This document shows, piece by piece, positions 18,867-24,039 of a stretch of 64,000 bases of DNA (position 1 is the stretch's first letter; each line of letters starts with the position of its first letter). Both the position numbers and the translations under genes were made by a program. The notes under the pieces were generated by a model. It was not told the DNA's origin. It searched no databases and saw only the letters and a list, made by a program, of their open reading frames with translations. Source of the DNA: Microcaldota archaeon (GTDB taxonomy: Archaea > Micrarchaeota > Micrarchaeia > Micrarchaeales > Micrarchaeaceae); the NCBI GenBank assembly GCA_021810105.1, contig JAJZJM010000003.1:1-64000 (forward strand). The letters run 5' to 3'.

Positions 18867-19202
18867 GTGATAATTATGGAAAAGATTATGCCGATAGGTA
18901 AAATAAGTGATTTCGATGAGGGAAAAGGCAAATCAGTAAAAATAGATGATGACACTCAAGTTGCAGTATTCAAAATAGGCGGCAAGATATTCGTTATTGA
19001 AGAAAGCTGCCCTCATCAAGGCGGCCCGTTATCTGAAGGCGAGGTTGAAGGGCTAAATGTCATATGTCCATGGCACCAAATGAAGTATGAATTGGAATCT
19101 GGAAACTCTTCGTCAGATGCATGGGATAAAGAATACAAGGTAAAAGCATTTAAGGTAATTTTGGAAGGAGAAGACGTAAAAATAGAGATTCCAGATTTAT
19201 AG
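18867..19202 (+). CDS. Rieske [2Fe-2S] ferredoxin-like protein
   Basis: CPHQGGPLSEG and CPWHQMKYEL motifs. Confidence 0.88.
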   Translation: MIIMEKIMPIGKISDFDEGKGKSVKIDDDTQVAVFKIGGKIFVIEESCPHQGGPLSEGEVEGLNVICPWHQMKYELESGNSSSDAWDKEYKVKAFKVILEGEDVKIEIPDL

Positions 19203-19400
19203 TAACACATGTGAATATTCTAATAAACGGAGCGCCGCAATAAATAATAATATAAGGAACGAACTAGCAAGGTAATTTTTTACATGGCCCGGCAGTTTTC
19301 TAATTTCAGATATAATTATGACTACAAAAACCATAAAATTAATTATGATAAGGCTTCCGATTAAAACAAGATTCAATAAGTTTTCAAGTATTTGTAACAA
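19197..19400 (-). CDS. small two-helix membrane protein, last gene of T4SS/Ced-like operon
   Basis: 67-aa hydrophobic ORF overlapping the end of 19373-20065. Confidence 0.45.
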   Translation of the reverse strand: MLQILENLLNLVLIGSLIIINFMVFVVIIISEIRKLPGHVKNYLASSFLILLFIAALRLLEYSHVLL

Positions 19401-20065
19401 AGAAAATCACTTTCTGTTAAATTAATAATAAAATTCCTTCTCCTAAAAATCAATGTATCAAGATTGCTTATGCTCCATTGCCAAAGAAAGCCCTGCCATG
19501 CGGACATAGCAGCAAACACGCACGCTCCCTTCTTGCCTTTCCCCCCATAAAGCAGGTATTCTTTATTCGGCTCTTGATTAAAACCAGATTTGTTCTCTTC
19601 TTTCAACCATAAATTATACCTGAAGTAATCAAAAACCCTTTTTATGTTATCTCCTTTGCAAACGATGTCTCCATACAGAATTAACCCTTTTCCATTGTTA
19701 TTTTCCAGGTAGTATTCAAATTCTTCATTTAATGACCAGTAATCAAGCATTTCTGACTCTTTCCGAACATTTTTCAGCAAACTAAATGTGCTAATGCAGC
19801 CTCTCCATTTCGAAATTCGTAAAAATTCATTATCAACAACCTCTAAAGGATTTATTATATGGGTTTTAGGCGAATACCCGCCTTGTTTGATATCCAAAAT
19901 TATTTTATTCCCTGTAAATTCTGTTACTAACATTAGTGACAAGCACACGCTGCCTCCTAGAAATAAATAAGTAAAATTTAATGAAATAAAAACAAACACA
20001 AATGAAAGCAAAACTGTTAAGATAAGAAAAAAACCAATTAACCCAAATCCTAAACTACCGCTCAT
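19373..20065 (-). CDS. membrane-anchored protein of unknown function in T4SS/Ced-like operon
   Basis: N-terminal TM helices, soluble C-terminal domain, overlapping gene order. Confidence 0.55.
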   Translation of the reverse strand: MSGSLGFGLIGFFLILTVLLSFVFVFISLNFTYLFLGGSVCLSLMLVTEFTGNKIILDIKQGGYSPKTHIINPLEVVDNEFLRISKWRGCISTFSLLKNVRKESEMLDYWSLNEEFEYYLENNNGKGLILYGDIVCKGDNIKRVFDYFRYNLWLKEENKSGFNQEPNKEYLLYGGKGKKGACVFAAMSAWQGFLWQWSISNLDTLIFRRRNFIINLTESDFLCYKYLKTY

Positions 20066-20694
20066 CGTATCTCTTTGTTTAGTTTTTTAATAATCTCTAT
20101 ATCTACTCCCAACCATCTGGCAAAATCGTTTTCCGCAATCCCGCCTTTTTTGGTCAAATTATGGTAAATCTCCTTGTAAAATTCCCTATACGCCTTTAAT
20201 GACTCATTTAAAGAGGCAGCTTCTAGCTTTGCATCGTAAAGATTTTTGGATAATTTTACATTAGCCAAGTTCAATCTCTTTATAAGAGTAGACAATCTCT
20301 CTATAAGTAGATCATCGGCAGATTGCGTTGAAGATATATTGCAATTTTTAAGCAAATCTATTACATACGGAAGTAAATCTATGTAATTGAATTCATATTG
20401 ACTATGGATGGCTTGTACAAACGCCAAAAAATTTGTCATGTGAGAAATGTTTTTCATTATCGAATAACTATTGTAACTAAAATTATAAGCTACTTTATCT
20501 GTGCATAATTCCAGAATGATTGTACTCTCTAAATCATGGCAGTTTTTTACATCGTAACATAATTTAGAACCACTACTAATAATATTTAAACCTCCAAATG
20601 ACTCCATAAAGGAAGAAAGTTCCTTAAAACCAGATTTTAATGCCCCTTTTATTACAAAAGAAGATGTAAAAATTTTATTTGTATTGTCAATCAA
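20062..20694 (-). CDS. cytosolic protein of unknown function in T4SS/Ced-like operon
   Basis: 210-aa ORF overlapping both neighbours. Confidence 0.55.
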   Translation of the reverse strand: MIDNTNKIFTSSFVIKGALKSGFKELSSFMESFGGLNIISSGSKLCYDVKNCHDLESTIILELCTDKVAYNFSYNSYSIMKNISHMTNFLAFVQAIHSQYEFNYIDLLPYVIDLLKNCNISSTQSADDLLIERLSTLIKRLNLANVKLSKNLYDAKLEAASLNESLKAYREFYKEIYHNLTKKGGIAENDFARWLGVDIEIIKKLNKEIR

Positions 20695-21790
20695 AAGCCC
20701 TCACCCCCTTTATGGATTCTATAGAAAGCGCAACAGAAGCCTCGTCTACACCAAGCTCAGAGAAAAAAGATATTATATCAATTCTTTTTACTCCAAGCCC
20801 CATCATCATGCTGATTACCTGCACCAAATCTAGGGACTGCCCAGCATCTTCGAAGAACCGAAACAACTTTAATCTACCTTCTGTATCAATTCCCATATTG
20901 GATATTGCATTAGATATACTCTCTTTAGACATTTTCATTTTTTCACCACAGAATGATAAAGAATATGACTTAAAAGAAAAGCCCTCTACCTTAACAACAA
21001 AATTCTGTTCGAAGTTGCTCCTATTGCGCATAGAAACAACGCAACACCCTCTTTTAAGAGACTTTACCGTTTCAACATCATTGTACTTTAGCAAGCCAGA
21101 AGATGAAAGCGCATCAAAATTATCAGACCCCTGTAAACGAAAAACAAAGCTGCATGCAGCATTTGCCAATATCTCATTATTTACGTCTTTCATTAATTGT
21201 GTTGCTACTATTATAGAAAATCCAAACTTACGTCCCTCTCGAAATAGCCTCCCTAACACCTTTTCATAATCTGCCAATTTCCATGCCTCGTCTATTACAA
21301 TAACCCAAGATACTCTTTCATTTAGTTCAGAGCATGACATGGACTTGGACACTTCTATTAGTATATCTCTTGCAACACAACCTGCTATTGAAGGATCTTT
21401 TATAGTCGACAGGTCTATGGACGAAATACGATTGCATAAAAAATCAACAAGCCTTACATTTCTATCTATATCTCTCCTAACATTACCACCAAGCCCCATT
21501 ACCAGTTGTGAATACTCTGAAGACCAGTCAATTATCAAAACATTTACTTTTGAGCTAATTAGCATGCGCATTATCATGCTTTTTAGCAAGTAGCTCTTTC
21601 CAGACCCGGTCATTCCAACAATGGATATATGTGGGTTTATCAATTTGCTATTATTAAGGAAAAATGGCAAATTATATACCAAAGTTTTGCCTACGTATAT
21701 TCCATCAGTTATATCATCGTCTTCTGGAGCCGGCTCGCTTGCCATAAACACAGTCAATAGTTTGGCTGCATTAATGGAATTTGATATCAT
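20687..21790 (-). CDS. VirB4/HerA/CedB-like DNA-transport ATPase motor domain
   Basis: Walker A ISIVGMTGSGKSYLLKS, Walker B WVIVIDEAWKL, FSIIVATQLMKDVNNEILANAACSFVFRL. Confidence 0.85.
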   Translation of the reverse strand: MISNSINAAKLLTVFMASEPAPEDDDITDGIYVGKTLVYNLPFFLNNSKLINPHISIVGMTGSGKSYLLKSMIMRMLISSKVNVLIIDWSSEYSQLVMGLGGNVRRDIDRNVRLVDFLCNRISSIDLSTIKDPSIAGCVARDILIEVSKSMSCSELNERVSWVIVIDEAWKLADYEKVLGRLFREGRKFGFSIIVATQLMKDVNNEILANAACSFVFRLQGSDNFDALSSSGLLKYNDVETVKSLKRGCCVVSMRNRSNFEQNFVVKVEGFSFKSYSLSFCGEKMKMSKESISNAISNMGIDTEGRLKLFRFFEDAGQSLDLVQVISMMMGLGVKRIDIISFFSELGVDEASVALSIESIKGVRAFD

Positions 21791-22596
21791 CGCATCACGT
21801 AATCAAACTTTATCAATTTCATTAATTCCGTGCCGCTAAGTATTGATGATTCCGCGCCGAAAATCGAACTCAAGCCCGATAATACTTCTTTTAAGTTAGA
21901 AAGTGCCTCCTCATCGGCTTTATATTTTACGCTCGCAGTGGAAGCGGTTACAACATAATACCGCATTTCTAAAGGTATCCCACCATTCTGTATTTGTGAA
22001 AGTTCATGACTCAGGTAAGATATCTCCTCTTTGAGCCTTGACGCTTTAAGCATGCCTTTGCCTGACTTCTGATTATGTATTCTGGATAATTCAATCTCCT
22101 TCATTTTTCTTTTTACCTGCAGCTTTTCTATCATTTTATCCGCTTTAAACCTCTTTACATAAGTGCTAATTCTGAAAGGAAATCCAATAGTTCCAATTAA
22201 TTTCTCTAATTTGTCTCTATCAACTTCAGAATCTGAAGTTGGCCTAAGCTCCGCGGCAGATATTGAAGTATAAGCACTCCCATCCCTTATGGATGCGGTT
22301 TGCCTGCTACCGCTCAGTTCAAAACCATCAAGCATTTGGATTATATTTGTATGCTTAAATATCAAAACCTCAATCATATTCCAGCCCTTGAATAAGATCA
22401 AAAACATAACACTGAGCAAAGATGTAATCGCTATAAGATACGGGTTAAAGGTAATGAATCCGGCTACCGCGTTAGCACAGCACACCAATGCGATTATATA
22501 GATAGTAAGATTCTCCACAAAATCACTAAAATATGTCAAATTTTCCAAAAGATACTTCCGAGCCCAAAGCACTAGCAAGTTCTCTGATAGAAACAA
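21787..22596 (-). CDS. two-TM protein with VirB4 N-terminal-like domain (VirB3-VirB4N-like)
   Basis: Two TM helices then a domain with GGIPLEMRYYVVTASTASVKYKADEEALSNLKEVLSGLSSIFGAESSILSGTELMKLI; ATGA overlap with ATPase. Start probably inside ORF. Confidence 0.55.
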   Translation of the reverse strand: MFLSENLLVLWARKYLLENLTYFSDFVENLTIYIIALVCCANAVAGFITFNPYLIAITSLLSVMFLILFKGWNMIEVLIFKHTNIIQMLDGFELSGSRQTASIRDGSAYTSISAAELRPTSDSEVDRDKLEKLIGTIGFPFRISTYVKRFKADKMIEKLQVKRKMKEIELSRIHNQKSGKGMLKASRLKEEISYLSHELSQIQNGGIPLEMRYYVVTASTASVKYKADEEALSNLKEVLSGLSSIFGAESSILSGTELMKLIKFDYVMR

Positions 22597-23557
22597 TAGT
22601 TATAATGAGACTGAATAATGGGAAAAAGAACACCTCTATGATTAAAACAGATACGGCTGCCATAACCTGCCGAAAGACTCCAGTGAAAGAGCTTACCAGT
22701 TTTGTCAAACCCGAAAGCAGGCCATTTCCAATAGGAGTTATCGCGTTCGCTGAAATGCCACCGCTTCCTGCAGACAGAATTTGCTCTTGCATTGATTGAG
22801 AGTTTAAGTTAAAGGTAGTGAACGCCTGTGGCCCCAATCCTGCAGAGTAGTTTGCAGTTATCTGCGCATCTAATAAATAAGTTAGAGGATACACTGCAAA
22901 TAAGCCTATTGCGATTGCCATTATCATGCCCCCTACCTTCCTAGTCAAATAAAACGTGCGTAAAACTATCCCTATAGGGAGAAGAAATGGAATGGCAACA
23001 ATGGATACAACACTAAGCAGTGCAGATTGGGTATAAAGGTCAATTATCGCAAAAGTTAGCAGTTTTATTATAAAGCTCTCCTCAGACATTACTGGCGACA
23101 ATATGCTTGAAAAAGAGAAAGAGGCAAAACCAAGGTTCAAATCTGTAGCAGATATAACTCCCAAAAGCAAATAACTACCTGTTAATGGAACCAGCATTGT
23201 CAGAGATGCATCAAGCAATGAAGGATAACTCGCATTTCCGATCTTTATTGGTTGTAACCCCACCAGATAATTATCTGCAAAACAAATTGCATAGTTATCG
23301 TTCATAAACCCTGAACAATAGGCCTGAACGTTGGATGACTGCACAATGCTATTTACTAAAGATACACCCATCCCGCTAGGGCTGAAAAAAGTAAACAGCG
23401 CGCCAAGTATTAGCGCATTGATAAACGATTGAAAAAGCTCATCTTTGCCGAAAGATTTCAAGCGCCTGTAATCTATTCCGTACCCTATACCAAGCGCTAT
23501 GCCTCCTATGCTTATCATAATAGCTACTATGCTTACCGCAATCTCGTAGCCTATCAA
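22526..23557 (-). CDS. polytopic VirB6/CedA-like channel protein
   Basis: About seven TM helices, IPFLLPIGIVLRTFYLTRKVGGMIMAIAIGLFAVYPLTYLL; gene context. Confidence 0.6.
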   Translation of the reverse strand: MIGYEIAVSIVAIMISIGGIALGIGYGIDYRRLKSFGKDELFQSFINALILGALFTFFSPSGMGVSLVNSIVQSSNVQAYCSGFMNDNYAICFADNYLVGLQPIKIGNASYPSLLDASLTMLVPLTGSYLLLGVISATDLNLGFASFSFSSILSPVMSEESFIIKLLTFAIIDLYTQSALLSVVSIVAIPFLLPIGIVLRTFYLTRKVGGMIMAIAIGLFAVYPLTYLLDAQITANYSAGLGPQAFTTFNLNSQSMQEQILSAGSGGISANAITPIGNGLLSGLTKLVSSFTGVFRQVMAAVSVLIIEVFFFPLFSLIITIVSIRELASALGSEVSFGKFDIF

Positions 23558-23564
23558 TCAATCA

Positions 23565-23927
23565 CTACTGAGATGAATTTAAAGTCATATTGCTAAGCAA
23601 ATGCGTAGATGCCGTTGCAAACGATGTTGCCGCAACACTCAACACACCAACAACGATCGCGCCAATTATGATGTTTACTGCAGTACTGTGAAAGTTAGCC
23701 TTCTTGTCAGGTGGCATTATCTGGCCTAATGCGTAGAATACTCCTGCAATTATAAACATCACCGCACTAAGAATTGGCCCCACTTGGCCTAAAATATTCT
23801 TTATATTGGCTAGTTCAGTAACAATCTGAAAGCTATAGCCCACGCTTGCGCCTCTCACAAGTCCTACAAAAGATAACACCAGCAATGCGGGTATCAATAT
23901 GCATCTTCCCCGTAGAAAACCGCCCAT
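23565..23927 (-). CDS. VirB2/CedA1/TedC-like conjugative pilin
   Basis: Signal-like N-terminus, then two TM helices joined by a short polar loop (MPPDKKANFH); first gene of the operon. Confidence 0.65.
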   Translation of the reverse strand: MGGFLRGRCILIPALLVLSFVGLVRGASVGYSFQIVTELANIKNILGQVGPILSAVMFIIAGVFYALGQIMPPDKKANFHSTAVNIIIGAIVVGVLSVAATSFATASTHLLSNMTLNSSQ

Positions 23928-24039
23928 GCATCCACCATTTACTTTAATAAATATATTTTATACAAATATATATTTAAATACTTAGATAAATGATATTAGC
24001 GGAAGTGAGCACTAAATCGCTAATCATCTGATGAAAGCA

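Follow-up and report, generated by a model that had tools for sequence, protein, structure and literature searches.

On balance, a compact operon in the genome of a Microcaldota archaeon (GenBank assembly GCA_021810105.1) appears to encode a chromosomal, domesticated machine of the type IV secretion system (T4SS) family, of the same kind as the archaeal Ced and Ted systems, and this machine probably moves DNA between cells, more likely importing than exporting it. The operon lies at 19197-23927 of the window, by which we mean the whole stretch of DNA analysed (64,000 nucleotides of contig JAJZJM010000003.1), and consists of seven closely packed minus-strand open reading frames (ORFs), here called g1 to g7, all of which had been listed in the first-pass annotation of this DNA and are recovered here. 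The machine type, a T4SS pilus machine, is well supported, and we infer DNA as its substrate and import as its direction. The window genome amounts to 821 kb in 5 contigs with a completeness of 93.6%, and its archaeon is tiny and probably symbiotic. The functional unit also takes in genes outside the window.

The pilin, the VirB4-like pair and the channel-like protein

The first gene, g1 (23565-23927), encodes a VirB2/TedC-like pilin of 120 amino acids (aa), with a signal segment and two transmembrane (TM) helices. As had been proposed from the letters alone, it is VirB2-like: its score for the Pfam family PF18895 (T4SS_pilin) exceeds the cut-off (27.3 versus 26.6 bits), and its orthologues match T4SS_pilin in 32 of 39 cases and TrbC/VirB2 in 26 of 39, which places a VirB2-like pilin, one criterion of the T4SS superfamily, in the operon. 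The g1 profile has no match among PDB sequences. In the alignment, a variable, signal-like N-terminus leads into the two TM helices, which are connected by a short charged loop (PPDKKANFH in the window). TedC is processed while CedA1 is not (PMC9905601), and a cleavable signal in g1, as predicted from the alignment, would liken it to TedC more than to CedA1.

The VirB4-type motor is encoded by two genes. The likely start of g3 (21787-22518, ~243 aa) is GTG 22518 rather than the mechanically assigned TTG 22596, because several relatives begin there and it lies 7 base pairs (bp) after g2. Its product had been described as a two-TM protein with a soluble domain, which is confirmed and can now be refined: in the AlphaFold model (pLDDT 89.6), the two TM helices lead into an alpha/beta domain with a long helical hairpin, and the top 14 matches of this model in the PDB are all R388 T4SS entries with TrwK/VirB4 (best E-value of 3.4e-4, probability of 1.00), pointing to a VirB4 N-terminal domain. 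The g3 profile finds nothing useful among PDB sequences. The next gene, g4 (20687-21790, 367 aa), encodes a CedB/VirB4-type ATPase domain with a Walker A motif (GMTGSGKS), a Walker B motif (VIVIDEA) and a C-terminal small domain. Its best NCBIfam model is CedB (2e-23), with 82.9 bits against an equivalog cut-off of 700, and the alignment runs from CedB residue 236 on, leaving the N-terminal part of CedB without a counterpart in g4. All 39 g4 orthologues likewise match CedB, with a best E-value of 2e-25 compared to 4e-18 or weaker for any HerA model, in agreement with the CedB/VirB4-like assignment of the first-pass annotation. Because g3 has the VirB4 N-terminal domain and g4 the ATPase domain alone, g3 and g4 together are equivalent to one CedB/VirB4, divided between two genes. 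The VirB4-type ATPase with an N-terminal domain, a further T4SS superfamily criterion, is thus found on two polypeptides.

The affinities of g4 also bear on a different reading, in which the operon is a DNA-repair HerA operon with unrelated membrane proteins. The protein belongs to the same HerA/FtsK ATPase superfamily as the HerA-NurA repair helicase and has the Pfam HerA central domain, and HerA-type ATPases lead its matches among PDB sequences, where no CedB is listed. We nevertheless regard a repair operon as highly improbable: the CedB model scores best for g4, NurA (PF09376) was not found in the window genome (this and the other genome-wide absences reported below each being based on one single-family search), and g4 has membrane and pilin partners, adjoining a pilin and a VirB4 N-terminal domain in fixed synteny. 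Grouping of the ATPase with repair HerA and NurA had been named at the outset as one outcome that would refute the reading, and this outcome is not what we see.

Between the pilin and the VirB4-like pair, g2 (22526-23557, 343 aa) encodes a channel-like protein with seven TM segments, two near-invariant cysteines and strong conservation across the order. It has no convincing family in Pfam, NCBIfam or PDB sequence searches. An identification as VirB6 by structure was rejected, as Foldseek of the AlphaFold model (pLDDT 82.5) against the PDB gave a best E-value of 0.07 and unrelated proteins; a pilin-like N-terminus, as reported for CedA and CedA1, was also rejected, the hhalign comparison not being significant. 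With no match in sequence or structure, it is from topology and position that g2 is assigned a VirB6/CedA-like role. The system is a variant of the T4SS/Ced kind, its ATPase and pilin having the expected features and its putative pore agreeing in topology and position. Of the minimal Ced-like machine first proposed, the pilin, the ATPase and the polytopic nature of the second protein stand, and the searches gave no sign of CedA/VirB6 homology in g2.

Conservation, distribution and the second ATPase

Relatives retrieved via g2 are metagenome-assembled genomes (MAGs), nearly all labelled Candidatus Micrarchaeota and a few Marsarchaeota. Our synteny set comprises 88 non-redundant Micrarchaeota loci retrieved via g2 or g4, such that the presence of these two genes is conditional on retrieval, while gene order and the presence of other genes are not. 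Since the pilin, g2, g3 and g4 recur in the same order and on the same strand in 85 of these 88 loci, the remaining 3 being cut by contig ends, the synteny looked for across related genomes is far above chance. The four-gene order persists down to ~25% identity. A member of the g5 family (20062-20694, 210 aa in the window), a soluble accessory protein with weak, mostly coiled-coil matches in the PDB, follows g4 in 72 of the 80 loci having a downstream ORF. The first five genes form a conserved unit, and g5, initially counted among three unknowns, is a core component.

In 45 of the 88 loci, the operon ends with g8, a same-strand gene for a second HerA/FtsK-type ATPase (~725-860 aa where complete). 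In the window's genus, g8 lies apart from the operon: the orthologue in the window genome (E-value of 1e-247) is on another contig (C3:291.5-294.0 kb; L184:7523-10038), with a small 3-TM ORF just upstream. To count co-occurrence, the presence of the compact operon was called by the g2 profile (E-value below 1e-40) in the 245 Micrarchaeota-phylum genomes drawn, with counts taken by hand. Among the 131 genomes of the window's family (69) and its sister family (62), 84 have both the operon and g8, 10 the operon only, 5 g8 only and 32 neither (Fisher p of 1e-16, to be read with the caveats that related genomes are not independent, that MAGs are incomplete and that one missing contig can remove an adjacent operon and g8). 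Joint absence occurs beside joint presence within genera 3, 5, 10, 18, 21 and 26 of the window's family, and in the window's genus, where the two are apart, most genomes retain both. g8 is gained or lost together with the operon. The g8 ATPase core and g4 are homologous (hhalign 98.8%), and members of the family match CedD, CD1110-type VirB4 and HerA models weakly. The N-terminal region of g8 gave no match to g3, so a g3-type domain is not demonstrated there. Near g8, on the opposite strand, we also observe a 617-aa CedB/CedD-like ATPase (C3:288.7-290.5 kb; L184:4675-6528) without pilin or membrane neighbours.

The compact-operon g2 is found in 44 of the 69 genomes of the window's family and in 50 of the 62 of the sister family, and its presence is patchy, even inside genera. 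This patchiness, together with one same-genus genome that lacks the operon beside the gene found at its edge in the window, is what one might expect of outgoing conjugation, with the operon as a remnant, or as the transfer module, of an integrated conjugative element for DNA export. We consider this improbable. The identity of g4 declines smoothly from genus to order, as in vertical descent, which suggests that the operon was inherited vertically with repeated loss, and no relatives of the pilin or g2 were found in viral contigs or plasmids. The relaxase family PF03432 was not found in the window genome (other relaxase families were not searched), in keeping with the absence of a relaxase remarked on earlier, and neither was the VirD4-family coupling protein (PF02534). 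VirD4 is absent in some T4SS superfamily members. With NurA, VirD4 and the PF03432 relaxase not found, both HerA-NurA repair and classical conjugation are unlikely.

Three genomes show local variations. In the same-genus genome G001 (L196, contig C13), the Rieske-type gene that in the window lies at the edge of the operon leads straight into other genes; the operon is absent there, yet g8 is retained elsewhere. In G032 (L189; C1:375-392 kb), stop codons interrupt the reading frames of the matches to compact g2 (and g4), and g8 is missing from the genome as well, a combination suggestive of the whole system decaying together. Finally, G197 (C2, C3) has two copies each of g2 and g8.

The last two genes of the operon in the window, g6 (19373-20065, 230 aa, two N-terminal TM helices and a soluble domain) and g7 (19197-19400, 67 aa, two TM helices), have no recognisable sequence relatives beyond the sister genome G008, in which the relative of g6 is 54% identical. 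By place, size and topology rather than by sequence, they match fast-diverging genes at the same place in relatives. Between g5 and g8, most of the 45 loci that end with g8 have three genes, for proteins of ~130-340 aa (one or two TM helices in the usual case), ~60-80 aa (mostly two TM) and ~90-110 aa (mostly three TM); g6 and g7 are positional fits to the first two genes of this interval. The gene junctions from g1 to g7 are +7, +7, -4, -8, -4 and -28 bp when g3 is begun at the GTG, and no TM helices are seen in g4 or g5. Upstream of g1 lies a putative AT-rich promoter region (23928-23995, minus strand), as had been supposed: AT content is 86% at 23930-23995 (66 bases), compared to 59% in the window, a predicted TATA-like box reads TTTAAATATAT, and GGTGG precedes the g1 ATG.

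Proposed function and related systems

We infer a pore role for g2 and the following steps of assembly. The signal-bearing pilin g1 would insert into the membrane and polymerise to form a thin pilus, with g2 as the membrane pore under it. Held by its two TM helices, g3 would display the VirB4 N-terminal domain, and the separate ATPase g4 would dock on it to form a ring motor for pilin extraction and substrate movement. The products of g5, g6 and g7 may be accessory motor or envelope factors, and g8 may be a further dedicated motor, in the manner of CedD beside CedB. DNA would thereby pass between Micrarchaeota cells or come from an archaeal host. Import in Saccharolobus requires both CedB and CedD, which are VirB4-like and whose N-terminal domains each correspond to a different portion of the VirB4 N-terminal domain (PMC11868833). 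By analogy with Ced, the combination of a pilus, a pore and a pair of VirB4-like motors is suggestive of DNA transfer. Import would be consistent with the reported lack of nucleotide synthesis in Micrarchaeota (PMC5864196), and also with ComEC (PF03772) not being found in the window genome. The genome also has three T2SSE-type ATPases, which makes type IV pili a separate matter.

Several points weigh against DNA import by such a machine. The channel-like protein g2 lacks a detectable VirB6 or CedA relationship in family, PDB sequence and structure searches. The TM-scores between g3 and VirB4 are low (0.38 by query length), so the support lies in the specificity of the match list and not in close superposition. 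T4SS-like machines, moreover, can also move proteins. The same machine might accordingly have another job, as a T4SS for host contact through which proteins, metabolites or signals pass to and from an archaeal host, a reading that we hold to be unlikely though a serious contender. In Patescibacteria, epibiotic growth requires a T4SS bearing several VirB2-like pilins (PMC12857230), nanohaloarchaeal VirB4-like proteins have been proposed to act in host subjugation (PMC10266531), and pili-like structures link ARMAN-type cells to hosts (PMC5498576); the failure to find a PF03432 relaxase or VirD4-family coupling protein in the genome fits a host-contact role as well. However, the best sequence affinity of the ATPase is to a DNA-import protein, CedB, and no candidate effector or coupling protein was recognised as linked to the operon. 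By the g2 profile, the operon is also missing from 37 of the 131 genomes in the two families (some of these absences being MAG gaps), and it is thus not essential to the lifestyle.

When compared to Ced of the Sulfolobales (CedA, CedA1, CedA2, CedB, CedD), a DNA-import system induced by DNA damage, the micrarchaeal system shares a chromosomal location, a VirB2-like pilin, a 6-7 TM channel-like protein, an ATPase whose best model is CedB, a second VirB4-like ATPase and, as far as the PF03432 family goes, the lack of a relaxase. It differs in having the VirB4 N-terminal domain and the ATPase on separate genes, a single compact operon, a pilin that looks signal-processed, a place in the phylum Micrarchaeota and a larger paralogous locus in the same genome, and in having no CedA recognisable by family, PDB sequence and structure searches. 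With Ted of the Thermoproteales (TedA, TedB, TedC), it shares a signal-peptide pilin adjoining a 7-TM gene and a VirB4-like ATPase nearby, whereas the VirB4 is split and no Rad50 or ParA neighbours are seen. The likeness of the pilin and channel to Ced and Ted is one of architecture, as distinct from a direct comparison with CedA/TedA and CedA1/TedC sequences. Bacterial conjugative T4SSs, represented by R388 TrwK/VirB4, share the pilin family and, in the VirB4 N-terminal domain, the fold of the g3 soluble domain, but at ~11% identity; here there is no outer-membrane complex, no PF03432 relaxase or VirD4-family coupling protein was found, and the motor is split. The T4SS of Patescibacteria is also a chromosomal, pilin-bearing system of an ultrasmall symbiont, for which PF18895 was among the profiles used (PMC12102498). 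It is a monoderm system of the MPF-FATA type with reported VirB1, VirB8 and VirD4 homologues (PMC12857230), whereas here VirD4 was not found, and VirB1 and VirB8 were not noticed.

The domesticated archaeal conjugation machines described in the literature surveyed are Ced and Ted, both crenarchaeal. In open-licence literature linking VirB4, CedA or type IV secretion to Micrarchaeota or DPANN, we found no description of such a system, although an earlier account elsewhere is possible; for Mia14, a pair of type IV pili systems has been described, along with likely conjugative elements of unspecified kind (PMC5498576). The original notion of an undescribed system thus holds insofar as the variant is new, but it is of a known kind, common to most genomes of the order and accompanied by a larger paralogue. 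The T4SS superfamily would be broadened by a DPANN version that has few genes, a physically split VirB4 and a larger paralogue within one genome. The split would offer a natural test of the role of the VirB4 N-terminal domain, and the genes would be named targets for the question of how ultrasmall archaea come by DNA or nucleotides and make contact with hosts.

The larger paralogous locus

The larger T4SS-like locus of the window genome lies at C3:93.9-107.0 kb (G000:C3:93916-107012; L182:5916-19012). It comprises a pilin-like ORF (pilin-profile E-value of 4e-6), a 6-TM protein and six tandem polytopic g2-like proteins, and further includes two g3-like proteins, a 511-aa ATPase whose best match is CedD (1.3e-22), a separate 104-aa protein like the C-terminal small domain of g4, a 2-TM protein and a g5-like protein of 245 aa, which the g5 profile matches with an E-value of 5e-10. 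Homology to the compact operon is supported by hhalign, with 95.5-99.6% for g2 against the six polytopic groups and 99.2 and 99.7% for g3 against the two g3-like groups, compared to below 1% for controls. Of the 60 relatives searched, most have ATPases of ~500 aa, and among these are genomes that lack the compact operon. The large locus was examined in eight genomes (L182, L185-L188, L190, L191 and G063), with that of G063 seen as the polytopic array only; in L188, the ATPase and downstream genes are present and the polytopic genes do not adjoin the ATPase. In other families of the class, tandem polytopic arrays recur (L170, L172, L173, L176), as do compact loci in which a single g2 and a single g3 accompany a 500-aa ATPase (L167, L168, L178, L179).

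More tentatively, the two loci could, alongside Ced and Ted, make up a third class of domesticated T4SS in archaea. Micrarchaeota would then have two paralogous machines per cell, one compact and one large, the latter having several subunits of the pore-like kind and, for each ATPase, two of the VirB4 N-terminal kind, with the VirB4 motor split in both, and these would be the symbiont's route for host DNA or nucleotides. In ARM-1, of a Micrarchaeota lineage, an unidentified barrel receives host nanotubes (PMC11329633), and it is tempting to view this barrel as a candidate match for either locus.

In most genomes inspected, the second locus is followed by a protein of 780-810 aa with 2-3 TM segments and no Pfam family (L182:3398-5749, L186:14938-17328, L190:16902-19337), possibly a large surface or secreted component.

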